NCBI RefSeq assembly: GCF_000010305.1
Contig: NC_012489.1
Span: 3,293,646 to 3,357,645 of the forward strand
From: Gemmatimonas aurantiaca T-27
GTDB taxonomy: Bacteria; Gemmatimonadota; Gemmatimonadetes; Gemmatimonadales; Gemmatimonadaceae
Reading direction: 5' to 3'
DNA length: 64,000 bases
The position numbers and the translations under genes were made by a program. The notes under the pieces were generated by a model. That model saw nothing but the letters and a program-made list of their open reading frames with translations, did no database searches and was not told the DNA's origin. Of the stretch, positions 31,335-44,560 are shown in pieces (position 1 is the first letter of the stretch; the number at the start of each line of letters is the position of its first letter).

Positions 31335-32144
31335 TCACTCCGGTGGCTCACTCCCTGTCAGCACCGCCGTCAGCACGATGACCACGGTCGCCAGGATCAC
31401 CTCGAGCCGCACCGCCCGTGATGAAGGCACACCTACCGCATGCACGTTGCGGCGCTGCGCCGCACCGAAGGCGAGGATCACCAGCACCAACACCGTCTTC
31501 AGGAGCAACATCTGACCATACGGCGCGGAGAGAATCGCGCGTGGCGATGAAGCACCCAATAGCCGCAGGCTGCTCATCACACCGGTGATCACGGCCAATG
31601 GCGCCGCGATCGTGGCAATGGCGCTCATGCGGCGCCAGCGCGCCCCGATATCGTCGCTCGGGCCGTCGGCAATGGCCAACACGAGCGCGCCGATCCAGGC
31701 GCCCATGGCCAGCACGTGTGCGGCGTCGACCGCGCGCGCGGCGACCACCCATTCACCGGCATTGGCGTGTCCCAGACCACCAATGGCGATCGCGAGGGCC
31801 ACCACACCGGCCCACAACACCGGACTCGAAAAACGTCCAAAACGGCGTGGCAGTGCCACCGCAGTCACCAGACACGCGGCCAGCAGCTTGGTCCAGTTAC
31901 GACCCCAACCGCCATTCAACAGCGCCGACACCTCAGCCCACGGCAACTCGAGCGCCGATCGCTGCGCCTGCAACCACAGCAGCGGGGCCAGCAACAGCGC
32001 CGCGACCGCCCCGGCCCGCAACAGCGCCCGCCCACGCGGTGTGCGACAACACGCGCACACTCGCGGCGGCAACATGGCTTCACCTACGGCGACGGTCGCC
32101 CCGGCGAACAACAGTACCTTGGCGACCGTCGTCAGATCGGCCAT
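31335..32144 (-). CDS. copD: CopD-family copper resistance/import membrane protein
   Basis: 269 residues with about eight membrane helices (KVLLFAGATVAVGEAML, AVAALLLAPLLWLQ, VLWAGVVALAIAIGG, AAHVLAMGAWIGALVLAI and others). The DAAHVLAMGAWIGAL segment, with a histidine inside the helix, is characteristic of CopD/PcoD. A CACC cluster lies near residue 30. CopD works with periplasmic CopC in copper uptake or tolerance. The start overlaps the CopC stop by one base (TAATG), and it is the last gene of the MbnP - dihaem enzyme - CopC - CopD operon. Confidence 0.9.
   Translation of the reverse strand: MADLTTVAKVLLFAGATVAVGEAMLPPRVCACCRTPRGRALLRAGAVAALLLAPLLWLQAQRSALELPWAEVSALLNGGWGRNWTKLLAACLVTAVALPRRFGRFSSPVLWAGVVALAIAIGGLGHANAGEWVVAARAVDAAHVLAMGAWIGALVLAIADGPSDDIGARWRRMSAIATIAAPLAVITGVMSSLRLLGASSPRAILSAPYGQMLLLKTVLVLVILAFGAAQRRNVHAVGVPSSRAVRLEVILATVVIVLTAVLTGSEPPE

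Positions 32145-32550: not shown

Positions 32551-32554
<4 letters not shown>
32144..32554 (-). CDS. copC: CopC-family periplasmic copper-binding protein
   Basis: 136 residues with a signal peptide (VPAVVVAAAVAAPMAMRA). The mature protein starts near HLRLKASFPAKDTTL, matching the CopC pattern in which a near-N-terminal histidine binds Cu(II). The C-terminal DGHVVDGTYSFTV is the family signature and holds the second metal histidine. CopC binds copper in the periplasm and hands it to CopD. It overlaps the upstream dihaem enzyme gene by ATGA and the downstream copD gene by one base. Confidence 0.93.
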
Positions 32555-33816
<1,262 letters not shown>

Positions 33817-33821
33817 CACGA

Positions 33822-34763
33822 TCAACGCGTGCCGCCGTTCACGATGCCGTTCACGGTGCCGTTCGGACCGGAGCCTGCGCTATTGGCGGCGCCGGTCGCC
33901 GTGCCCCGCACCACGCGGAAGAACTTGGGCGTGTCGGCACCGGTGGCGTTGGGATGCGGCAGGTTCAGCGACGCAAAGAGCCCGCCACAATCGGCGTCAT
34001 TGGGCGCCGCCATGCACCCCATCGCGGTCTGCGGCTGGTTGCGTCGCACATCACTGCGCGACAGCAGGGCCGCGAGGTCGGCCACGATCACGTCGCGGGC
34101 CGGATTGAACCCACTGAGGGCGATTTCCGGGCGATTGCCATGAGAGCAGGACGTGGGTGCCTTGGCCCCGGCCGCCCCCGTGCATCCGGTGCTGCCCAGA
34201 TGAATCACCCACGCCGTGGCGGCGGAGTCGGGACGCGTGGCACGCATGTCCACACGCAGAAACTTGTAGCCGGCATTCCACGACCAGAACAGACGCGACA
34301 GCGAAAGCGGCGGCCCCTGTGTGGCCATATCGGAATGATTGCGCGCAAACGGCACACCCACCGTGAACGCGACCCCCTGATATTCACCGGCCGGTGCCAG
34401 CACCGTGATCTGCGGATTGGTCTCCGGCGTGCCGTTGGCGCAGGTGGCCGTGCCGTTTTCGAAATCCAGCAGCGCAATCTCCCGATCCTGCCACGGCGAA
34501 CGTGGTGCCATGGCCGCACGCACGGTATCACCGCGGGCCGTCACGAGGCGCACGTTGTGCACGTAGAAGCGGAAATCGCTGGCCGTGATCGTGGCCCCCG
34601 AGGTGCCAATCCCCGGATACTCCTTGCCGCAGGAGAACGGCGTATCACCCACGGTCGCCTGCAGGCGAATGGTGATCGGGATGAGGGAATCGGCGGCAGG
34701 CGCCGATGGAACGGCGGGCGTGGTCGCCAGCAGCATCGCGGCGGCCAGGGCAACAACAGACAT
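33822..34763 (-). CDS. MbnP-family copper-binding protein
   Basis: 313 residues with a signal peptide (MSVVALAAAMLLATTPAVPS). The MbnP signature is very clear: DFRFYVHNVRLV (63-74), LLDFENGTATCANGT (98-112), FTVGVPFARNHSD (133-145), LFWSWNAGYKFLRVD (158-172) and HLGSTGC (188-194). MbnP proteins are periplasmic copper binders; in characterised members a tryptophan is oxidised to kynurenine by MbnH. Trp160 and Trp162 are good candidates here. It is the first gene of the operon with the dihaem enzyme, CopC and CopD. No methanobactin precursor or mbnBC gene is in the window, so it belongs to the wider, methanobactin-independent group. Confidence 0.93.
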   Translation of the reverse strand: MSVVALAAAMLLATTPAVPSAPAADSLIPITIRLQATVGDTPFSCGKEYPGIGTSGATITASDFRFYVHNVRLVTARGDTVRAAMAPRSPWQDREIALLDFENGTATCANGTPETNPQITVLAPAGEYQGVAFTVGVPFARNHSDMATQGPPLSLSRLFWSWNAGYKFLRVDMRATRPDSAATAWVIHLGSTGCTGAAGAKAPTSCSHGNRPEIALSGFNPARDVIVADLAALLSRSDVRRNQPQTAMGCMAAPNDADCGGLFASLNLPHPNATGADTPKFFRVVRGTATGAANSAGSGPNGTVNGIVNGGTR

Positions 34764-35042
34764 GAAGGCCTCGGAGTGAAATGCACGGAGCCGGGCGGCC
34801 GTATGGTCGCCGGGTGACATCGGGCGGCCCACGCCCCACGACGTGTCTGGAGCACGAGGTGAGGCGCGACCGACAAACCAGAGCGCGAATGGTGGAACGG
34901 TCAGTGACCGGCGATCCTGCGCCCGATGGCCCAGCACTGTTGGCGACCAGCCAACAGGGGCTCTGTCGTGCAGCGGTCTTGAACGGTCACATCGCAGACG
35001 ATCGTCGAACCTCCGTCAGGAGGAGACGCCGCCCGTGAACAG

Positions 35043-35600: not shown

Positions 35601-37883
35601 TCAGAGCTGCCCCAGCCAGCTCACCTTCACCAGCAGTGACCGGGCTACCGGACCGGTGTATCCGGATACCGGCTGCCGGTCGTTGTAGACCACATGCACA
35701 AACGACAGCGGGCGGTATTCCCAACTGAAGCGCGTGTTGAGCGTGCCTCGGCCCTGCGCGGTGTTGTACTGGTAGAAGGCACTCCACTGCAGACGCGGTG
35801 ACGCGAACACCCGCAGTTCCGGCCCGGCGAGATGCGTGACGAAGCTGCTGTCGCGGGTCCCGAGATCACGCAGCCGATTCAGTTCATAACTTCCGCGCAG
35901 CGCCACGAACGGGTTGGGCGACCAGCGCGCAGTCAATGCCGCACGATCGAGGGCGCCGTCAAAGAAGCCGCCGGTGGAGAGATTTCCGGTGACCGTAGCC
36001 CGCGCACTCTGATCACTGCGCGCATCGATGCCCACGCGCTGATAGTCATGCCGTCCGGCCGGTGTACGCACACCGGGGAACAGCATCAGCTCCTGCTCGG
36101 GACGCTGCAGGTCGAGTTCATGATAGAGACGCGTTGTGCCGCCATTGGTCTGCAGGACCTCCACATAGCTGGAGATCACGCCTTCCTGCAGACGGCGACT
36201 GTCGGGATCCTGGTAGAAGTAGGTGGTGATGCCCGGCTTGAACCACACCACACCTCGCGGCCGCCACGCGGGCTGCGCATTCCACGACACGGCGGGGCTC
36301 GACATCAACACATTCGGGCGTGAGACAAACCCCGTGCGTGGTGCATAGTCGCGCGTGACGAGCGCACCGACATAGCCCATGTACGTCGACGGCGAAGTGC
36401 GACTCGCAAACCAGGTGACGGCGACACCGGTGCGCCCTGAATCGGTGGACGTGGACAGGGTGCCATTGAACTGCACCTGCTCCCCGATGCGGGTGACAGC
36501 ATCGAGCGATGTCACCACGTTGTTGCGCACCTGAACGCGCGCGGTGAGTGGGCTGTCTATCGCATCGTCCTGCCGCAACGCGGTCAGCAGTGCAACGCGC
36601 GTGGAACGTCCGAAAAATCGACTGGCGCGCGCAACACCGAACGTGGACGCCGGAAGATCACCCTGCCCCCGCTGACGCATCACCATGGCGCCTGCGGTGG
36701 TGCGCCCCGTGCGATAGGCATAGCGCGCGCCACCATCGAGCGGGATGGGAGTACCATCATCGGCCAGCCCGATGCGTCGGGTGAAGAAAGGCTGCACCAC
36801 ATAGCGCACGTTCACCCCACCACCGGACAACAGATCGGCATTTTCCAGGAAAAACTGCCGCTGTTCGGGGAAGAACACATTGAACCGGGTGAGATTCACG
36901 ACCTGCCGATCGACCTCGGCTTGTGCAGAGTCGGTATTGAGCGTGCCCTCGAGGACACTGTTGGCCGTTGGCGCCCAGATGACTTCACCGCCGACATCGC
37001 CCGTGGTACGCCGAGGCTCGCGCAGGGCGCCGTCCCGCGTGCCTTGCGCGAGCACATACGGACGCACACGGATGTTGGTGCGCGGCGGTGGTGGGGCGAC
37101 TGAATCGAGCACCCCGGCATACGTCAGGCGCCACGACGAGAGCTGCCGCGGGTAGGGCGCCCACGCACTCCACTGCAGCGCTCGGCGGGTATTACGCACG
37201 AGATTCAACTCCCATTCACCGCGTCCCGGCGCGTACCGCAGCGACCGCCAGGGAATCGCCATCTCCACCACCCACCCGGAATCCGAACGGGTCGTGCGGG
37301 CGCGCCACAGCGCATCCCAATTGGTGTTGGCCACATCCCCGCCGTCGAAGGCCTGCACATCGGCCAACGATCCCAGTGGACTCACCTGGAACTGATAGGC
37401 CGTGCGGCCGTCACCCAGCGGCCCGAGTGTGACGCCAAAGAGATCGCTCTCGTTGCTGTCGAAATCGCGACGGAGATCCTGCATGCGAAGCGCCGCCAGA
37501 CCGGCGCTGTCGTGATTGAATGCCCCCACATAGAGATGATCCCGATCAAACAGGATGCGTACCGTGCTGGGGTATCGCGTCTCGGCGACAAACTCCGGGC
37601 GGACCTGACTGAAGGCCTGCGCCTCCGGCGCGGTAAGCCAGGCCGGTTCGTCGAGGCGCCCGTCGACCAGAATGGGCGTGGTCGTGCGGCGTGCCGTGAG
37701 CCGACGCCGGGATTTGTCGGTGGGTAATGGGACCGCTGTGCGGGCCATGGACCCTGCAACTGCGGCTCCTGATGTCGACTGCGCCTCGAGCACCCCACCC
37801 ATAGACAGGTGGGCCGACATCCCTACCCCAACCAGCAGGGGCATCCAGCATCCCTTGTCCCCCCACGAACGGGCGCGTGACAT
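35601..37883 (-). CDS. DUF5916 outer-membrane-type protein with CBM9-like N-terminal domain
   Basis: 760 residues with a signal region ending ...MGGVLEAQS. Residues about 45-240 are a CBM9/DOMON-like beta-sandwich (PILVDGRLDEPAWLTAP, VRILFDRDHLYVGAFNHD, VVEMAIPWRSLRYAP). Residues about 260-760 match DUF5916: FNVFFPEQRQFFLENADL, then PFFTRRIGLADDGTPIPLDG, then amphipathic strands alternating aromatic residues up to a C-terminal strand (SLLVKVSWLGQL) typical of an outer-membrane beta-barrel. Function is unknown in the family. It is divergent from the DUF2796 gene, and a 23-bp imperfect palindrome (37915-37937) lies between them, 32 bases from this start. Zinc regulation is therefore possible, but unproven. 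Confidence 0.87.
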   Translation of the reverse strand: MSRARSWGDKGCWMPLLVGVGMSAHLSMGGVLEAQSTSGAAVAGSMARTAVPLPTDKSRRRLTARRTTTPILVDGRLDEPAWLTAPEAQAFSQVRPEFVAETRYPSTVRILFDRDHLYVGAFNHDSAGLAALRMQDLRRDFDSNESDLFGVTLGPLGDGRTAYQFQVSPLGSLADVQAFDGGDVANTNWDALWRARTTRSDSGWVVEMAIPWRSLRYAPGRGEWELNLVRNTRRALQWSAWAPYPRQLSSWRLTYAGVLDSVAPPPPRTNIRVRPYVLAQGTRDGALREPRRTTGDVGGEVIWAPTANSVLEGTLNTDSAQAEVDRQVVNLTRFNVFFPEQRQFFLENADLLSGGGVNVRYVVQPFFTRRIGLADDGTPIPLDGGARYAYRTGRTTAGAMVMRQRGQGDLPASTFGVARASRFFGRSTRVALLTALRQDDAIDSPLTARVQVRNNVVTSLDAVTRIGEQVQFNGTLSTSTDSGRTGVAVTWFASRTSPSTYMGYVGALVTRDYAPRTGFVSRPNVLMSSPAVSWNAQPAWRPRGVVWFKPGITTYFYQDPDSRRLQEGVISSYVEVLQTNGGTTRLYHELDLQRPEQELMLFPGVRTPAGRHDYQRVGIDARSDQSARATVTGNLSTGGFFDGALDRAALTARWSPNPFVALRGSYELNRLRDLGTRDSSFVTHLAGPELRVFASPRLQWSAFYQYNTAQGRGTLNTRFSWEYRPLSFVHVVYNDRQPVSGYTGPVARSLLVKVSWLGQL

Positions 37884-37914: not shown

Positions 37915-37937
37915 TTGCAATATCGATAATATTCCAA
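37915..37937. promoter_or_regulatory. Candidate Fur/Zur-family operator A
   Basis: A 23-bp imperfect palindrome, TTGCAATAT-N5-ATATTCCAA type, with eight of nine arm bases matching, in an AT-rich patch between the DUF5916 (-) and DUF2796 (+) genes. A second TTGCAA copy lies about 28 bases upstream (37889-37894). Metal-regulator operators often look like this. The sequence does not match a textbook Zur box exactly. Confidence 0.45.
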
Positions 37938-38032: not shown

Positions 38033-38593
38033 ATGCAGGTGCCATCAGCCATCACTTTGGCCGGAGCGATATCCTCGCGGCTGGCCGCCATCTGCGGCAC
38101 ACGATCCCCCCTGCGATGCGCGCCGGCCCTGCTCGTCGCTATCGCCCTGCCGGTGACGGCCTCTGCGCAGCATGTGCACGGCGAAGCCCGGCTGATCGTC
38201 GGCGTGGAGGGGCGCACGGGACAAGCCGAACTACGCGCCACTGGCGAAGATCTGTTTGGCTTCGAACATGCCGCCCGCACGGCCGAGGAGCGCACGAAGC
38301 AGACACAGATCTTCACACGTCTGCGCACCGAGGGCGCCAAACTGTTGCGCTTCGATCCGTCGCTCGGCTGCCAGGTCGCGGCGAAAAATGTTCGCATCGA
38401 CGAATCGGGCGATCATGGGGAAGTCGTCGCGTCCTATACCATCAATTGCCGCGTGGCGCCTCAGGGGAAGCCGCTGCGCTTCGGCATCAGCTCGGCGTTT
38501 CCGGGCATTGATCGTGTGTCGGTGCAACTGGTGTCCGATACGGCGCAGACCGGTGCCACCATCAGTCGGGATCGTGGTCAGGTCGTTCCCTGA
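38033..38593 (+). CDS. DUF2796 (ZrgA-like) periplasmic zinc-associated protein
   Basis: 186 residues with GGAGAG six bases before the ATG. A signal peptide (APALLVAIALPVTASAQ) is followed at the mature N-terminus by HVHGEARL (His47, His49). That is the DUF2796 hallmark and a likely zinc site. The body has the family pattern GQAELRATGEDLFGFEHAA, and a Cys pair (LGCQ, INCR) that may form a disulfide. In Vibrio and Pseudomonas, DUF2796 proteins (ZrgA) belong to zinc-uptake loci repressed by Zur. Here the neighbours are CobW GTPases, a ZIP-like transporter fusion and a DUF3299 gene, which supports a zinc acquisition role. Confidence 0.87.
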   Translation: MQVPSAITLAGAISSRLAAICGTRSPLRCAPALLVAIALPVTASAQHVHGEARLIVGVEGRTGQAELRATGEDLFGFEHAARTAEERTKQTQIFTRLRTEGAKLLRFDPSLGCQVAAKNVRIDESGDHGEVVASYTINCRVAPQGKPLRFGISSAFPGIDRVSVQLVSDTAQTGATISRDRGQVVP

Positions 38594-38704: not shown

Positions 38705-40408
38705 TCAGCCGTTGGATATGTGCAACGGCTCGAGAAACCCACGAATCCCGCGGCGCGCCAGCACCCACACGTAGAGCAGCGCCACCAGACCTGCTGCGGC
38801 CAGGGTCAACCCGTTTGATGGCCCCGCTGAAAGCCCGCTCCAGGCCCCCGAGCGTATGCGATCATCGGCCGCGTTGAGTGCCAGACCTGCCAGGATCGCA
38901 ATCGTTGGTGCAATTGCCCACGCTCGCGCAGCCGCTGCGGTCCCACGTGATCTCACCACCGGCAGCCAGGCACGCAGATCGGGGAGCGCACCAAGCAGCA
39001 ATAGCGCCAGTGCGGCGCCCGGAGAGACACCCGCAGCAATCAGCACGGCGCCAACAGGCACCAAGGCCGCTGCATGCACACAGATGATCCCACCAAACAC
39101 CGCAAACACCAGCACGTCCACGCCTGCCGGCAGTCGTGTCAGCCACGATTCTGCCAGGATCGGCGGAAGTATGGCAGCCGTCATGAGACCGACGATGATC
39201 CAGGGCGCTGAATACTCCACGGCGGAGATCCATGCTGTATGGGGCTGCTGTCGCTCAGGCGAGGCGACTGCAATTCGTTCCACGGGCACAACACCCGAGC
39301 GCGCCGTCAGCGTGGTCAGCACCTGTGCCAGCAAGAGTCGGATCAACGCCAACGCCACACCCAACAACGGAACCGAAAGCAGCGCCGCCTCCAGTGACAG
39401 TGCGCCATTGCCACTGCGCACATCACTGACGCGCACCGAGCCCGGTCCCCACGCAAAGACGGGGCGGCCGCGCACCTGCTCCACAGTGGCCAACACCGCG
39501 ATCGCACCATAGGCAAAGAGCACCGCCGGCGCACCAGCCAGGGTCAACTCCCACAACGAATCCGCGATGCTCACGGATTGTTCGTCGTGGCCACGTCCGC
39601 CAAGCAGTTGCAGCGCCACGAGCACGGCCAGTCCGAGCAACGACCCGATGCCACTGGCGCGGGCCAGATCGCCCGTCGGCACGGCATGGGTAGGATCATG
39701 CTCGTGGCTATGCGCGTGGCCATCATGGTCATGACTGTGCGCGTGCACCTGTTGATGCGAATGGTCGGCATGCGAGTGTGCATGGCCGGTTTCCGCTTCG
39801 GCTTCCTCGTGCTCGTGGGTGGCGTGCCCGATGACATGCAGCAACGAGCCCCCGACCAGCGCTTCGAACCACAGCGCCGCACGATCCGGCAGCCAGGCAA
39901 GCACGGTGGGTTCGGCCACATAACCGGCCACGGTCATGATGGCCATCAACAGCAGCACCAACCACGACATCAGGCGCGCGCGATCGCGCAGCACCCACCA
40001 GACCGTGAGTCCCACCGGGATCTGGTGTAACAACACCCCATACCCCAGCAGGCTTCCCGGCTGCGTGTGCGATTGTGCCAGCGCGCTGCCATCGAGAACC
40101 GAATGCACCGCCACGCCAAGCAGGGCGAGCCCGAGAATCGCCGTGTGCGTCTGGCGCACACCGTACTGCAGCATGCGTTCGACCAGGCCGGGCACGAGAT
40201 AGCCCAGAGCCATGCACAGCATGGCGATCAGATCTCGATGCTCGAGTGCGTGGGGGACCACGTCGAGCAGCACCAGTCCGCCGATCGAGACGACAATGAA
40301 GCCGTCGACAAAGGCAATCACGCTCGGCCTGGAGCGGGCATACCGGCTGAGCAGCGGGCCGATGACGAGCGCGCCCAGACTGGCGGGCAACAGCGCGCTG
40401 ACTGGCAT
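38705..40408 (-). CDS. ZIP-like metal transporter fused through a His-rich loop to a UPF0718-like permease
   Basis: 567 residues from the ATG at 40408; in-frame GTGs at 40429 and 40450 are alternatives. Residues 1-198 have about six helices and ZIP-like motifs: HSVLDGSALA (102-111) and HQIPVGL (128-134), comparable to the metal-binding helices 4 and 5 of ZIP transporters. Residues 191-241 form a loop with about 20 histidines (HAHSHADHSH, HAHSHEHD). Residues about 255-567 have eight or more helices resembling UPF0718/ArsP-type permeases (APWIIVGLMTAAILPPIL, PVGAVLIAAGVSPGAALAL). It is last in an operon after rpmG and a CobW GTPase gene, 12-54 bases downstream. It probably moves zinc across the inner membrane; direction and coupling are unknown. 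Confidence 0.82.
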   Translation of the reverse strand: MPVSALLPASLGALVIGPLLSRYARSRPSVIAFVDGFIVVSIGGLVLLDVVPHALEHRDLIAMLCMALGYLVPGLVERMLQYGVRQTHTAILGLALLGVAVHSVLDGSALAQSHTQPGSLLGYGVLLHQIPVGLTVWWVLRDRARLMSWLVLLLMAIMTVAGYVAEPTVLAWLPDRAALWFEALVGGSLLHVIGHATHEHEEAEAETGHAHSHADHSHQQVHAHSHDHDGHAHSHEHDPTHAVPTGDLARASGIGSLLGLAVLVALQLLGGRGHDEQSVSIADSLWELTLAGAPAVLFAYGAIAVLATVEQVRGRPVFAWGPGSVRVSDVRSGNGALSLEAALLSVPLLGVALALIRLLLAQVLTTLTARSGVVPVERIAVASPERQQPHTAWISAVEYSAPWIIVGLMTAAILPPILAESWLTRLPAGVDVLVFAVFGGIICVHAAALVPVGAVLIAAGVSPGAALALLLLGALPDLRAWLPVVRSRGTAAAARAWAIAPTIAILAGLALNAADDRIRSGAWSGLSAGPSNGLTLAAAGLVALLYVWVLARRGIRGFLEPLHISNG

Positions 40409-40462
40409 CAGGGAACGATAGTCAGCCACGGGATCTAATTGCAAATGCACTTTCGATACCCG

Positions 40463-41689
40463 TCACGTGGTATGAGGGGCTCGAAACAGTTCCTGAAAGG
40501 CCTGGGTCGTGTCTCCCCCGTCATCGTCATCGACTTCGCCGTCCTGATTGAGCTCGGCCCATTGCGGGAAAGGATCATGGAAGGCGCTCCAGCGCGCCGG
40601 ACCGGCCTCGAAGTCGGCCACGCTGACCAGACAGTCATCGAGCAGGGCCGTGAGTCCGGCGCGATCCAGATGTTGTCCGATGATCGCCAGCTCCTGCCGC
40701 GGCGTGCCGAGATCGGGGCTCCAGTAGGCCGCCGGGTTCACCTGCAGCAGTTGCCCGGCCTGAGACCAACTTCCCATCAGCTCGGGCTGGGAGGCCACCC
40801 AGAAGAACCCCTTGGCGCGCAGCACACCGGGCAGGCCGGCATCGACCCTCGTCCACAGGCGCTCGGGATGGAACGGCCTGTTGGCGCGATACACGAAGCT
40901 GGCAATGCCGTACTCCTCGGTCTCCGGGACGTGTTCGCCGGCCAGTTCCTTCTGCCACCCAGGCGCCGCCTCGGCCCGGACAAAGTCGAAGCGTCCGGTG
41001 CCCAGCAGGTCCTGGGGCTCCACCCGCCCGCGAACGGCGTGGATGATCGTCGCGTCCGGATTGAGGTGGTGCAGCAGGGCTTCGAGTTCACCCAGTTCGT
41101 CGCGGCCGATGAGATCGATCTTGTTCAGCACGATGACGTTGGCGAACTCCACCTGGTCGATGAGCAGGTCGGGGATGGTGCGTTCGTCATCGTCTCCAAG
41201 CGCGAGCTGCCGCGCGCGCAGATCGTCGAGCGTGCCGAGGTCGTGTCGAAAGCGATGACTATCGACCACGGTGACCATCGTATCGAGTCGTGCGACATGC
41301 GAGAGCGTGGAGCCCTCGTCGGTCTCGAATGTGAAAGTCGCCGCGACGGGAAGCGGTTCACCAATCCCGGTGCTCTCGATGAGCAGGTAGTCGAATCGTT
41401 CTTCGGCAGCGAGACGGGCCACCTCCTGCAGGAGATCGTCGCGCAGGGTGCAGCAGATGCACCCATTGCTCATCTCGACCAGTGTTTCTTCCGTCCGGGA
41501 GAGTGTGGCCTCTCCACCACGCACCAACTGCGCGTCGATGTTGATCTCGCTCATGTCGTTGACAATGACCGCGACCCGCAGTCCATCGCGGTTGGCCAAC
41601 ACATGATTGAGTACCGTGGTCTTGCCTGCTCCGAGAAACCCGGAGAGCACTGTGACCGGCAAGCGTCGGTCGGGGACCGGCCCGTTCAT
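40463..41689 (-). CDS. CobW-family GTPase (ZigA/ZNG1-like zinc chaperone)
   Basis: 408 residues; the ATG at 41689 overlaps the rpmG stop (ATGA). Walker A is GFLGAGKT (17-24). The metal-binding GCICC motif lies at 76-80. Guanine specificity is in NKIDL, and a CobW C-terminal domain follows ([18 protein letters not shown]). The tail is acidic ([11 protein letters not shown]). Zinc-linked COG0523 GTPases of this kind deliver Zn(II) to client metalloproteins under zinc starvation. Its operon partners, a cysteine-free L33 and a ZIP-like transporter, and the Fur-like box upstream of rpmG support that role over cobalamin synthesis. Confidence 0.92.
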
Positions 41690-41841
41690 CGGGACTCCCG
41701 ATAAAGGACGTGACGCTTCACAACCGGATCGTATTTCCGCTTCTCGAGCCGTTGCGGCGTGGAGCGCGGATTTTTGGTGGTGACGTACAGGTGGTGGCTT
41801 TCCGTGGAGCGGAGCTTCACGTGAACCCGAGTATTGGCCAT
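41686..41841 (-). CDS. rpmG: 50S ribosomal protein L33, cysteine-free form
   Basis: 51 residues ([20 protein letters not shown]...), read on the reverse strand from the ATG at 41841 to the TGA at 41686. The L33 pattern is clear: [20 protein letters not shown] then [10 protein letters not shown]. It has no cysteines at all, whereas the zinc-ribbon L33 has two CxxC pairs; it is the C-minus paralog. AAGGATC lies upstream as ribosome-binding sequence. It is the first gene of the operon with the CobW GTPase and the ZIP-like fusion, 23 bases after a Fur-box-like palindrome. Zinc-free L33 paralogs under Zur control spare zinc in several bacteria, and the setting here fits that. Confidence 0.95.
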
Positions 41842-41863
41842 CAAGGATCCTTGAAGTGTTTAT

Positions 41864-41881
41864 ATGATAATGAGCTATCAT
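41864..41881. promoter_or_regulatory. Candidate Fur/Zur-family operator B
   Basis: ATGATAATGAGCTATCAT: a palindrome with 6-bp arms that closely follows the classical Fur-family pattern GATAATGATNATCATTATC. It lies 23 bases upstream of rpmG in a 74-base AT-rich gap, with outer TTGAA/TTCAA matching ends. Its position suits repression of the rpmG-cobW-ZIP operon. Confidence 0.65.
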
Positions 41882-41915
41882 TAACATATATTCAAGTCAC
41901 CTTTAGACCCTCGGT

Positions 41916-42875
41916 TCAGCCCCCGTCGACGGTGCGCTCAGCCGTGAGGGTCTTCAGTTGTTCTGCCAGATCACTCACCGGTAGCCCGACCCCGATGAAC
42001 AGGGCCGTAGGCTGCGCGTCGGCGTGCGGCTTGGAGTGATCGAGCCGCAGTCCTTTCCGGCCGGGCAGCTTGTTCCAGACGTAGACCTTTTCCGGGGCAT
42101 CGGTGAACCGCACCAAGCCCTTGGCGCGCACGACGGCGTCTGGCAACTCATGGACGAACCGACGGAACGCCTCGCGGTCGACGATCGGCGGCAACGCCAG
42201 CGACGCCGCCCCAAATGGGTGTGCATGCGCATGGGCGACGTCACTGCGAGGCATCGCCGCCATCCCCGACACGTCACGCTGCGTGCTGCCAGCCACCCGC
42301 TGGGTCAGTTCGTTCAGCCAGCCAGCAAACTCCACTCCGGTGACGAGATCGGCGCGGGGGTTGAGCTCCTGCAAGGCGCCCCGAACCAGCGCCTGCCGAT
42401 CGGCTCCCACACGTGCGGTCCAATTGAGATGGACATGCGTGGCTGTGCTCACCTGCGCCCGCTCGAGACCGTTGTGCCACCAGCGCTTCTGCCAGCGGGT
42501 GGCGTCGATGACCGTGATCTGCAGCGGCAAGGTGAACTGCCGCAGGCGTGCGTCGGCCGTCAGGTGGGCGAGCAGTTCATCGGTTTCGGTCGCGCCATTG
42601 GCTTCGATGCACATCACGCTCCCGGGATCGGATGGCACCTGATACAACACGTTGAGCAGTTCCCGCAGCGAACCGCAGCACACACACTCGCCGTTGAGTG
42701 GCGTCACCAAGGCACTCAACTCGGCCAACCGCGATGCATCGATCCGGGCATCGCGGAAGTCATTCAGCACGATGCGCACGCGGGTCCCGCCCGCCGCCAA
42801 GGCCGGCACCAACTCCGTGAGAAAGCGCGTCTTCCCCGCGCCCAGGAATCCGGCCAGCAGAACCAAGGGGATCAT
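41916..42875 (-). CDS. Second CobW-family GTPase, with degenerate base-recognition motif
   Basis: 319 residues. The ATG at 42875 has GGTGAG seven bases before it; a GTG at 42884 is possible. Walker A is GFLGAGKT (9-16) and the CxCC motif is ECVCCGS (63-69). A short C-terminal CobW domain contains His-rich bits (HAHAHPFG, HSKPHAD). The guanine-specificity motif NKxD, which should follow about residue 150, reads HLNWTARVG. The lysine and aspartate are lost, so nucleotide specificity may be changed. It is transcribed toward rpmG and divergent from the DUF3299 gene, with a Fur-like sequence between. Confidence 0.88.
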   Translation of the reverse strand: MIPLVLLAGFLGAGKTRFLTELVPALAAGGTRVRIVLNDFRDARIDASRLAELSALVTPLNGECVCCGSLRELLNVLYQVPSDPGSVMCIEANGATETDELLAHLTADARLRQFTLPLQITVIDATRWQKRWWHNGLERAQVSTATHVHLNWTARVGADRQALVRGALQELNPRADLVTGVEFAGWLNELTQRVAGSTQRDVSGMAAMPRSDVAHAHAHPFGAASLALPPIVDREAFRRFVHELPDAVVRAKGLVRFTDAPEKVYVWNKLPGRKGLRLDHSKPHADAQPTALFIGVGLPVSDLAEQLKTLTAERTVDGG

Positions 42876-42941
42876 ATCGAACACTCACCACCGAGGCGTC
42901 CGAATACAACCAGACACAGCCAGCAATTCTTTATTGCTTTT

Positions 42942-42955
42942 GCATTATCATTAGC
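42942..42955. promoter_or_regulatory. Candidate Fur/Zur-family operator C
   Basis: GCATTATCATTAGC, containing two adjacent ATTATC-like hexamers of the Fur-family type, lies 14 bases upstream of the DUF3299 start and 66 bases from the second CobW gene start. The surrounding 30 bases (TTATTGCTTTTGCATTATCA) are markedly AT-rich. Confidence 0.5.
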
Positions 42956-42969
42956 GTTACAGTTAGAAC

Positions 42970-43578
42970 ATGCCTCGTCTTCGTTTGCTCCCATCCCTGT
43001 CGATCCTGATCGCGGCGGCCATGTGCGGGGTTCGTCCGTCGCCGGTGCCCGATACCGTGGAGGCCAGCCGCGACGCGCTTCCGGTCACGGCACCCACCGT
43101 GAGTGGGGCAGCGGACGAGGTGGTGACCATCGATTGGCGGCTGCTGCGTACCCTCGACCTGCGCACGGGGGTTCCGGGTGACTCGTTGCGCCGGTTGGTC
43201 GGCCGGCGGGTCCGCCTGCCGGGGTTCATCGTGCCGCTGGAAGATTTTCAGGACCGCGCCAAGGAATTCCTGCTGGTGCCGTACTTCGGGGCCTGCGTGC
43301 ACATGCCCCCGCCGCCGCCCAATCAGTTGGTGTACGTGAAAATGCGCGGCACGGTGAACCTGACATGGTGGGCGCCAGTGTGGGTGGAAGGGGTGCTGCG
43401 GGTGATCACCTTCCAGTCACCATACGGGTCGGCCGGTTTCCAGATGGACGCGGATCGCATCGTGCCATTCCGGGAACGTCAGGCGGACGCCTCGGGGCGG
43501 GGGCGGGTGAGCCAGCCGTCGATCAGGGCCACCACGCCCCAGGCCACACAGGCCGCCACGACGGTGTCGCTCAGGTAG
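42970..43578 (+). CDS. DUF3299 exported protein (zinc-regulon associated)
   Basis: 202 residues with a signal peptide (LLPSLSILIAAAMCG). DUF3299 is recognised from LVGRRVRLPGFIVPLEDF, FLLVPYFGACVHMPPPPPNQ and GVLRVITFQSPYGSAGFQMD. Function is unknown. In Pseudomonas a DUF3299 gene lies in a Zur-repressed cluster with ABC transporter and DUF2796 genes (from memory), matching the content here. The last 35 residues after the conserved domain are low-complexity, and the final 100 bases overlap the end of the convergent PAP2 gene. It starts 14 bases after a Fur-like sequence. Confidence 0.85.
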   Translation: MPRLRLLPSLSILIAAAMCGVRPSPVPDTVEASRDALPVTAPTVSGAADEVVTIDWRLLRTLDLRTGVPGDSLRRLVGRRVRLPGFIVPLEDFQDRAKEFLLVPYFGACVHMPPPPPNQLVYVKMRGTVNLTWWAPVWVEGVLRVITFQSPYGSAGFQMDADRIVPFRERQADASGRGRVSQPSIRATTPQATQAATTVSLR

Positions 43579-44114
43579 TGGGCATGGGCGAGGATGCGCG
43601 TGACGGCGCACCCGGCAGCCAGCGTGTAAAACACCCACTGTGCCCTCGGAAAAAGGCGGGCCAGTGCAAAGGCGCCGGCAAACGCGACCAGCACATGCGA
43701 GCTGGGCATACCCATGCCGCGGTTCGACAGCGGCCCCTCGGCGAAACTGCGAAACACATACCCAAACGTGTCGGCATCGGGGCGCAGGCGACGCACCAGC
43801 AGCTTGAGGACTTCGGCCACGATGCCGCCCGCCGACGGCGCCAACACGAGCAACGCCGCCCCATGGCGCCGCGCCGCGGGCTGATCCTGCTGCAGCCACC
43901 ACGCCAGGCCGAGCAGGCCCCACGTTGGCAAAAATCCCATGACACGCAGCAGGCGACCCCAGTCCTTTTCGTACACGGTCGCCATGCGCCATTGCCAGGC
44001 TATCGGATCGAGCAGATGGGCCAGCACAATGGCCACCACCGAGACCAACAGCCAGCGCTTCCAGGAGGGGGACATCGGCTCCCGGTGTGGGAGAGAATTC
44101 AGAGGAAGGCTCAT
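43479..44114 (-). CDS. PAP2-family membrane phosphatase
   Basis: 211 residues with about five membrane helices. The three PAP2 motifs are present: KLLVRRLRP (motif 1, Kx6RP), PSSHV (motif 2) and TRILAHAHYLSD (motif 3, with His and Asp). Enzymes of this class dephosphorylate lipid phosphates such as phosphatidate or undecaprenyl diphosphate. It is divergent from the Fur-family regulator (71 bases between starts) and overlaps the DUF3299 gene tail to tail by 100 bases. The link to zinc is positional only. Confidence 0.9.
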   Translation of the reverse strand: MSLPLNSLPHREPMSPSWKRWLLVSVVAIVLAHLLDPIAWQWRMATVYEKDWGRLLRVMGFLPTWGLLGLAWWLQQDQPAARRHGAALLVLAPSAGGIVAEVLKLLVRRLRPDADTFGYVFRSFAEGPLSNRGMGMPSSHVLVAFAGAFALARLFPRAQWVFYTLAAGCAVTRILAHAHYLSDTVVAACVAWGVVALIDGWLTRPRPEASA

Positions 44115-44185
44115 GGCCGGAAATCAAGAGGCCTACCCACACCCACGCCACTATGATCGAAGTGGTCCGGCGCCATATTTCCAGC

Positions 44186-44560
44186 ATGGAACGCAACACG
44201 AAGCAGCGGGATGCCATCCGGCAGGTGTTCGAAGAGATCGCTCGCCCTCTTGGACCGAACGAGGTCCTCGAAGCGGGTCGGACGCGTCATGCGAAGCTCG
44301 GCATTGCCACCGTGTATCGCACCATCAATTCGCTGGTCGACAGCGGCTGGTTGGTGCCGGTGGAGCTGCCCGGTGAACCACCACGCTACGAGCGCGCCGG
44401 CAGTGAGCATCACCATCACTTCCGCTGCCGCACGTGTACGCGTGTCTTCGAGATCCATGGCTGCCCCGGTGAACTGAAAGACCTTGCTCCGGCCGGCTTC
44501 CGCCTGGAGAGCCATGAGGTGGTGTTGTACGGATTGTGCGCGCGATGCGCGGCGGACTGA
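44186..44560 (+). CDS. Fur-family metalloregulator, probable Zur
   Basis: 124 residues starting at MERNTKQRDAI, the usual beginning of the family; an ATG at 44153 would add 11 residues. A winged helix (TKQRDAIRQVFEEIARP, HAKLGIATVYRTINSLVDSG) is followed by the dimerisation domain with a His run (HHHHFRC, 75-81), and two CxxC pairs (Cys81/Cys84, Cys118/Cys121) for structural zinc. Fur, Zur and PerR cannot be told apart by these motifs alone. The surrounding zinc genes, zinc-free L33 and Fur-like boxes argue for Zur. The stop lies 16 bases inside the SCO gene, so it is cotranscribed with copper-delivery genes. Confidence 0.9.
   Translation: MERNTKQRDAIRQVFEEIARPLGPNEVLEAGRTRHAKLGIATVYRTINSLVDSGWLVPVELPGEPPRYERAGSEHHHHFRCRTCTRVFEIHGCPGELKDLAPAGFRLESHEVVLYGLCARCAAD

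Follow-up and report, generated by a model that had tools for sequence, protein, structure and literature searches.

A ZIP-type module joined to a decayed UPF0718/ArsP_1 permease in a zinc-starvation neighbourhood of Gemmatimonas aurantiaca

A 64,000-nucleotide stretch of the Gemmatimonas aurantiaca T-27 genome (hereafter the window) was analysed computationally and was found to encode a protein in which a ZIP-type module is joined to a UPF0718/ArsP_1 permease, an arrangement that the evidence set out below supports as a fusion by descent. The permease half has decayed in this protein, and the gene lies in a zinc-starvation neighbourhood of the Zur-regulon type. In the explanation that we favour, and which taken as a whole we hold to be probable, the product would be a zinc-starvation-induced inner-membrane zinc importer of the ZIP type, the C-terminal ~300 residues of which would be vestigial or at most structural. 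Both parts are of known kinds; what is new is their fusion, the relocated His-rich loop, the altered site in TM5 and the fact that the permease has lapsed repeatedly. The features of the window are listed in Table 1.

Table 1. Positions of the fused gene, its parts and its neighbours, counted from the first letter of the window
Feature	Position	Strand	Remarks
ZIP-like + UPF0718/ArsP_1-derived fusion gene	38705..40408	minus	567 aa, single ORF
ZIP-like helices TM1-TM7, residues 3-195	39824..40402	minus	AF2 model, Foldseek, VIA, hhalign
His-rich loop, residues 196-245	39674..39823	minus	predicted disordered
Helix 246-269 after the His-rich loop, read as ZIP TM8	39602..39673	minus	full-length model, standalone relatives
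Decayed UPF0718/ArsP_1 permease half, residues 270-567	38708..39601	minus	identity, pN/pS, bit scores
Site of the lost repeat-1 segment, residues 319-335 (relatives GLPLPICSCGVVPLY...ATPELG)	39404..39454	minus	low model confidence
Altered repeat-2 motif, residues 443-478, CVHAAALVPV...LLGALPD (relatives CASASTPLVAVL...TGPATN)	38975..39082	minus	
ZrgA-family periplasmic zinc-binding protein	38033..38593	plus	PF10986, 105.7 bits
ZigA-like COG0523 GTPase (putative zinc metallochaperone)	40463..41689	minus	cobW + CobW_C; NCBIfam ZigA 548 bits, cut-off 600
Cys-free ribosomal protein L33 paralogue (rpmG, C- type)	41686..41841	minus	PF00471, 60 bits; no Cys
Second COG0523/CobW-type GTPase (COG0523b)	41916..42884	minus	
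DUF3299 protein	42970..43578	plus	PF11736, 118.7 bits
FUR-family regulator	44087..44560	plus	PF01475, 71 bits; NCBIfam gives no Zur call
Operator-like site	37915..37928		upstream of zrgA and a divergent DUF5916 gene
Operator-like inverted repeat TGATAATGAGCTATCA	41862..41884		upstream of rpmG
Operator-like site TTGCATTATCATTAGC	42940..42955		between COG0523b and the DUF3299 gene

Gene and fused architecture

The start of the gene was placed at the ATG at 40408, from which its relatives align; the upstream GTG at 40450 would extend the protein to 581 aa. Stops are abundant when the same interval is read on the plus strand, and a chance open reading frame was ruled out, since homologues of 580-680 aa with the same fusion are found throughout the genus and in further phyla. 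In a profile search of the genome (one contig, 4,636,964 bases), the fusion protein was the sole match to Pfam Zip and the sole match to ArsP_1.

An earlier note on this DNA, made from the letters and the open reading frames, had proposed a fusion of a ZIP-like transporter, a His-rich loop and a UPF0718-like permease. For the N-terminal half a ZIP match was indeed obtained, residues 1-206 alone scoring 35.8 bits with Pfam Zip (PF02535), marginally above the gathering cut-off of 35.1. Residues 246-567 matched ArsP_1/UPF0718 (PF03773) over a partial stretch with 24.3 bits and the whole protein matched it with 21 bits, both under the cut-off of 32.3, and the NCBIfam model for the SO_0444 Cu/Zn efflux protein (NF033936) gave 33.6 bits against a cut-off of 300. 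No single model in Pfam or NCBIfam spans both halves, which rules out a single-family protein and leaves the fusion reading standing. As regards descent the proposal therefore holds, but not in the position that it gave the loop or in a working second module in this protein.

Structure of the ZIP-like module

The N-terminal module has the ZIP fold in its predicted structure. An AlphaFold model of residues 1-203, built from 81 input sequences, contains seven helices with a pLDDT of 89, and a Foldseek search with this model returned BbZIP for all of the top seven chains with a probability of 1.00. VIA aligned the model to BbZIP across 187-201 residues with Z scores of 13.0-14.4, the unrelated fold ranked next having 6.3, and hhalign comparison with canonical ZIPs from the same phylum gave a probability of 98% and an E-value of 2.8e-13. 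A fold search with the full-length model yielded BbZIP for the N-terminal half and nothing further. Profile searches against PDB sequences gave no useful relative for the fusion family, and just 5 of 16 relatives matched Pfam Zip, even at an E-value of 0.01.

The two intramembrane motifs that had first suggested a ZIP transporter, HSVLDG and HQIPVG, are present at residues 102-107 and 128-133. The first supplies H102xxxD106-G107 in TM4, which satisfies the HxxxE/D-G metal motif, and the second contributes H128 in TM5; H191 and H195 lie in TM7. E77, H102, H128 and H191 are invariant across the 81 sequences and position 106 is Asp or Glu. The bridging glutamate of TM5 (HxxPE) is absent, HQIPVG carrying Val132 at this position and most relatives Val or Ile; an acidic residue is kept in a few of them, for instance HRLPEG in locus L130 and HRIPDG in locus L145. 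The canonical sequence at this site is HKxPEG in ZIPs of the same phylum and QDVPEG in BbZIP, where the glutamate bridges the two metals of a binuclear site. Owing to its loss, the module is described here as ZIP-related, divergent and non-canonical, and its metal binding may be weak or different. Such a site could serve to probe the extent to which transport depends on a binuclear centre. When TM7 was aligned by eye (GAMIFVVSHEVIPE in BbZIP, GGSLLHVIGHATHEH in the fusion protein), H195 appeared to fall opposite BbZIP H275 and V192 opposite V272, the latter named as an internal-gate residue of BbZIP (PMC13192868).

The His-rich character of the loop noted earlier was borne out with a lower count than the "about 20" histidines first given (15 in residues 199-248 and 18 in residues 191-245). 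The loop does not separate two modules, as had been thought, but sits within the ZIP module between TM7 and TM8, because helix 246-269 follows it and because standalone gammaproteobacterial relatives of ~240-300 aa end in the same order of TM7, His-rich loop and one helix. The ZIP module is accordingly read as eight-helical; the superposition on BbZIP covers TM1-TM7, and TM8 was assigned from the full-length model and the standalone relatives. ZIP topology, together with the basic residues of the TM1-2, TM3-4 and TM5-6 loops, suggests that the His-rich loop is cytosolic. A cytosolic His-rich loop that slows release has a precedent, since replacing the clustered histidines of the second intracellular loop in BbZIP and ZIP4 raises the transport rate (PMC13192868).

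Compared with the ZIP family (PF02535; BbZIP/GufA-type proteins and the HTFFDG...HKxPEG ZIPs of Gemmatimonadota), the fusion family thus shares the fold of TM1-TM7, HxxxD-G in TM4, HxxP in TM5 and a His-bearing loop on the cytosolic side. Unlike those proteins, most of its members have Val or Ile in place of the TM5 glutamate, H191 of TM7 is invariant, the His-rich loop lies between TM7 and TM8 rather than between TM3 and TM4, and the module is followed by a fused second permease or, elsewhere among the relatives, cut down to seven helices.

Decay of the permease half

UPF0718/ArsP_1 proteins, including SO_0444, are the source of the C-terminal half. Both repeat motifs are kept in the intact fusions recovered from congeners (GLPLP-[IV]-CSC-[GS]-VVPLY...ATPELG and CASASTP...TGPATN, or close variants), two of which score 131 and 122 bits with ArsP_1, against 20.5-24 for the window protein; with the SO_0444 model one congener (L119) scores 209 bits and four intact relatives 198-219 (cut-off 300). 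In the window protein, by contrast, a half that falls below these cut-offs stands behind the ZIP module: a short stretch without homology takes the place of ~50 residues that include the repeat-1 CSC motif, and the repeat-2 motif is altered. A frameshift concealing the CSC motif was ruled out, as the motif occurs in no frame of either strand.

Divergence is concentrated in the same half. Identity between the window protein and its congeners is 0.61 in the ZIP half and 0.35 in the permease half, against 0.63 and 0.62, respectively, among the congeners themselves. For pairs that include the window gene pN/pS is 0.45 in the ZIP half and 0.75 in the permease half, and for all other pairs 0.40 and 0.44 with a maximum of 0.58. 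GC3 falls from 0.82 in the ZIP half to 0.69 in the permease half, a larger drop than in the congeners. With the CSC segment gone, the repeat-2 motif altered and constraint relaxed, the permease half is very probably non-functional, and the two transport modules of the original description do not hold for this protein. An intact fusion whose C-terminal half was missequenced or misassembled is a highly improbable source of this pattern: among the congeners compared the motif is missing solely in the window genome, for which one assembly of the species was used, but it can be found in no frame, the substitutions are spread across the whole half, the frame is open and the genome is a single contig.

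Distribution of the family

One genome per species was scanned using an alignment of the N-terminal domain as the query, and 178 relatives were obtained, of which 80 were kept; a scan of the same kind with the window protein alone as the query gave no match. In 31 of the 80 loci the gene is fused to a largely intact permease and in 4 to a degenerate or motif-altered one; the other 45 are standalone ZIP-like genes, with 7 or 8 helices. Fused genes occur in Gemmatimonadota, Acidobacteriota (including the cultured Acanthopleuribacter pedis), Myxococcota and Pseudomonadota, and standalone forms additionally in Rhodothermota. Within Gemmatimonadota, 95 of 395 genomes contained a match, mostly fused in the window organism's own genus and several other families and standalone in others. 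The fusion is therefore an old and conserved, previously unrecognised architecture in at least four phyla; the impression that the arrangement is not a standard one agrees with a search of open-licence papers, in which nothing relevant on a ZIP-UPF0718 fusion was found. The standalone genes were considered as split halves of a fusion and rejected as such, no permease gene adjoining them where this was checked. The converse arrangement was seen at loci L049 (6442-8043) and L050 (6498-7742), where permease halves have another N-terminus in place of the ZIP module and a COG0523 gene lies 1.2-1.5 kb away, so that the permease keeps company with zinc chaperones even alone.

Further degenerate or altered permease halves with an open frame are found at L113, at L104 and in the pair L147/L148. 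The change in L147 is milder (113 bits with ArsP_1, motif changes only), and L148 is truncated at the end of its contig. The tree separates L113, L104, L147/L148 and the window protein: well-supported branches force at least three changes, and the best tree implies four. Since the altered loci are placed apart, fusions with a lapsed permease arose several times, in about four lineages if motif-altered permease halves are counted with the degenerate ones. Repeated loss or decay of the permease beside a persisting ZIP half makes the family a set of natural experiments on the role of each half.

These lineages bear on the alternative that the permease half has been repurposed as a pseudo-transporter scaffold, which holds a dimer together or gates the ZIP module in a protein that works as a unit. 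The tail of the window protein stays open through ~300 codons, most of its helices are still predicted with high confidence, and decayed or altered halves with an open frame recur at the loci just named. However, pN/pS and divergence are raised over the whole half and not only around the lost motif, GC3 drops along with them, and the many standalone relatives have no permease half at all. We regard a scaffold as unlikely. The favoured reading of a vestigial tail leaves room for a residual structural role, given that the frame remains open across the decayed half.

Zinc-starvation neighbourhood

The minus-strand genes run in the order COG0523 GTPase, Cys-free L33, ZigA-like GTPase and fusion gene, and the stop of the L33 gene overlaps the start of the ZigA-like gene. 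The zrgA and DUF3299 genes border this run, and the FUR-family gene is nearby. As called mechanically, the ZigA-like open reading frame (40463-41887) overshoots by ~66 residues and conceals the L33 gene. Pairs of zinc-binding and zinc-free L33 paralogues are known from Zur regulons, and the two L33 proteins of this genome have the form of such a pair, as the other one carries CxxC...CxxC. With the ZigA-like GTPase, the Cys-free L33, ZrgA, a DUF3299 protein that we take to be ZrgE-like and a FUR-family regulator, which is called Zur from context only, a zinc-starvation neighbourhood of the Zur-regulon type is present. It resembles Zur regulons with COG0523/ZigA genes in its GTPase, Cys-free L33, FUR-type regulator and operator-like inverted repeats, and differs from them in that the transporter is a ZIP-permease fusion and not ZnuABC or ZupT.

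As in the Vibrio ZrgABCDE system, a ZrgA-family protein and a DUF3299 protein share one zinc cluster, and Vibrio Zrg zinc import requires ZrgA (PMC9820375). Unlike that system, no ZrgB/ZrgC ABC transporter is apparent in the open reading frame list of the cluster; for this reason the ZIP fusion may replace it, which makes the fusion a candidate membrane partner for ZrgA. No ZnuA was found in the genome, nor a second Zip, ArsP_1 or ZnuABC system. The lone ABC-3 match was inspected as a possible ZnuB and rejected, since its operon also encodes an ATPase and a periplasmic binding protein and reads as FecB/FecCD-type. The genome further encodes one NRAMP transporter, which could likewise transport metal.

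Operator-like sites were found in the intergenic regions of the cluster (Table 1). The pattern TTGCANTATCNNTA occurs twice in the 4.64 Mb genome, both times at promoters of the zinc cluster; because it was derived from those very sites, this count shows its rarity and not its function. Among the congeners, L051 and L053 carry TAATGATAAT upstream of their fused genes, L053 has it upstream of rpmG-COG0523 as well, and in L052 it lies between COG0523b and the DUF3299 gene; these shared sites may act as operators. No canonical gammaproteobacterial Zur box (TGTTATA..ATAACA) was found in the window. At the Pseudomonadales locus L103 a COG0523 gene comes after an intact fusion, and the Zur-box-like palindrome ATGTTACGTTATAACAT lies between the two. 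Two genes upstream of this fusion and COG0523 gene, an open reading frame at L103:186-2456 encodes a TonB-dependent receptor-like protein, possibly an outer-membrane zinc receptor. In the window, the DUF5916/CBM9-like gene at 35601-37883 (minus strand) starts ~30 bases from the 37915 site and is perhaps co-regulated with the zinc cluster.

Proposed function

In the importer explanation, zinc shortage would release the FUR-type repressor, and from the operon the cell would then make its zinc-free L33 and the ZigA-like zinc GTPase along with the ZIP-type protein. Most likely the ZIP module would carry Zn2+ from the periplasm to the cytosol, as its family and context suggest, possibly after a hand-over from the co-localised ZrgA. 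The His-rich loop would bind or slow the incoming zinc at the cytosolic mouth, the ZigA-like GTPase would receive or distribute it, and the permease tail would do nothing essential in the window organism. In relatives the UPF0718/ArsP_1 permease would still be at work.

Against the importer explanation, an efflux relative such as SO_0444 would by analogy sit oddly in a starvation operon. SO_0444, the characterised relative closest to the permease half, is needed for growth under zinc and copper stress, its mutants being sensitive to both metals, and is a proposed efflux protein (PMC3219624). In B. anthracis, Zur binds the gene of an ArsP_1 permease as one of its targets, with box positions that suggest activation (PMC6336718). 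These two observations make a two-way valve possible, and the intact family might thus be an exporter or a two-way zinc valve, in which the SO_0444-like half exports Zn or Cu and the ZIP-like half senses or re-imports metal. The scores of the four intact relatives with the SO_0444 model and the missing bridging glutamate of the ZIP half would suit such a protein, but the neighbours in Gemmatimonas are of the zinc-starvation type (Cys-free L33, ZigA-like GTPase, ZrgA), and in the window protein it is the efflux half that is without its motifs and the ZIP half that is still constrained. We judge an exporter or valve to be quite unlikely.

A wider reading, which is put forward tentatively and which we think improbable, would see in the intact family a zinc homeostat on one polypeptide: the cytosolic His-rich loop would coordinate a ZIP-type importer with the SO_0444-type permease fused to it, and this permease has repeatedly been discarded or has decayed in place. 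If the homeostat reading were true, species like the window organism would be natural knock-outs of one half.

Other genes of the window

A PAP2-family membrane phosphatase is encoded at 43479-44114 (minus strand) beside the FUR-family gene, and a gene of this family adjoins the fused gene in several congeners (L031, L032, L033, L051 and L054). Further away, a CxxCH protein and its neighbour at 32551-34937 (minus strand), presumably a cytochrome c peroxidase-like protein and an MbnP-type partner, and a CopD-domain protein at 31335-32144 possibly form a copper/redox cluster.
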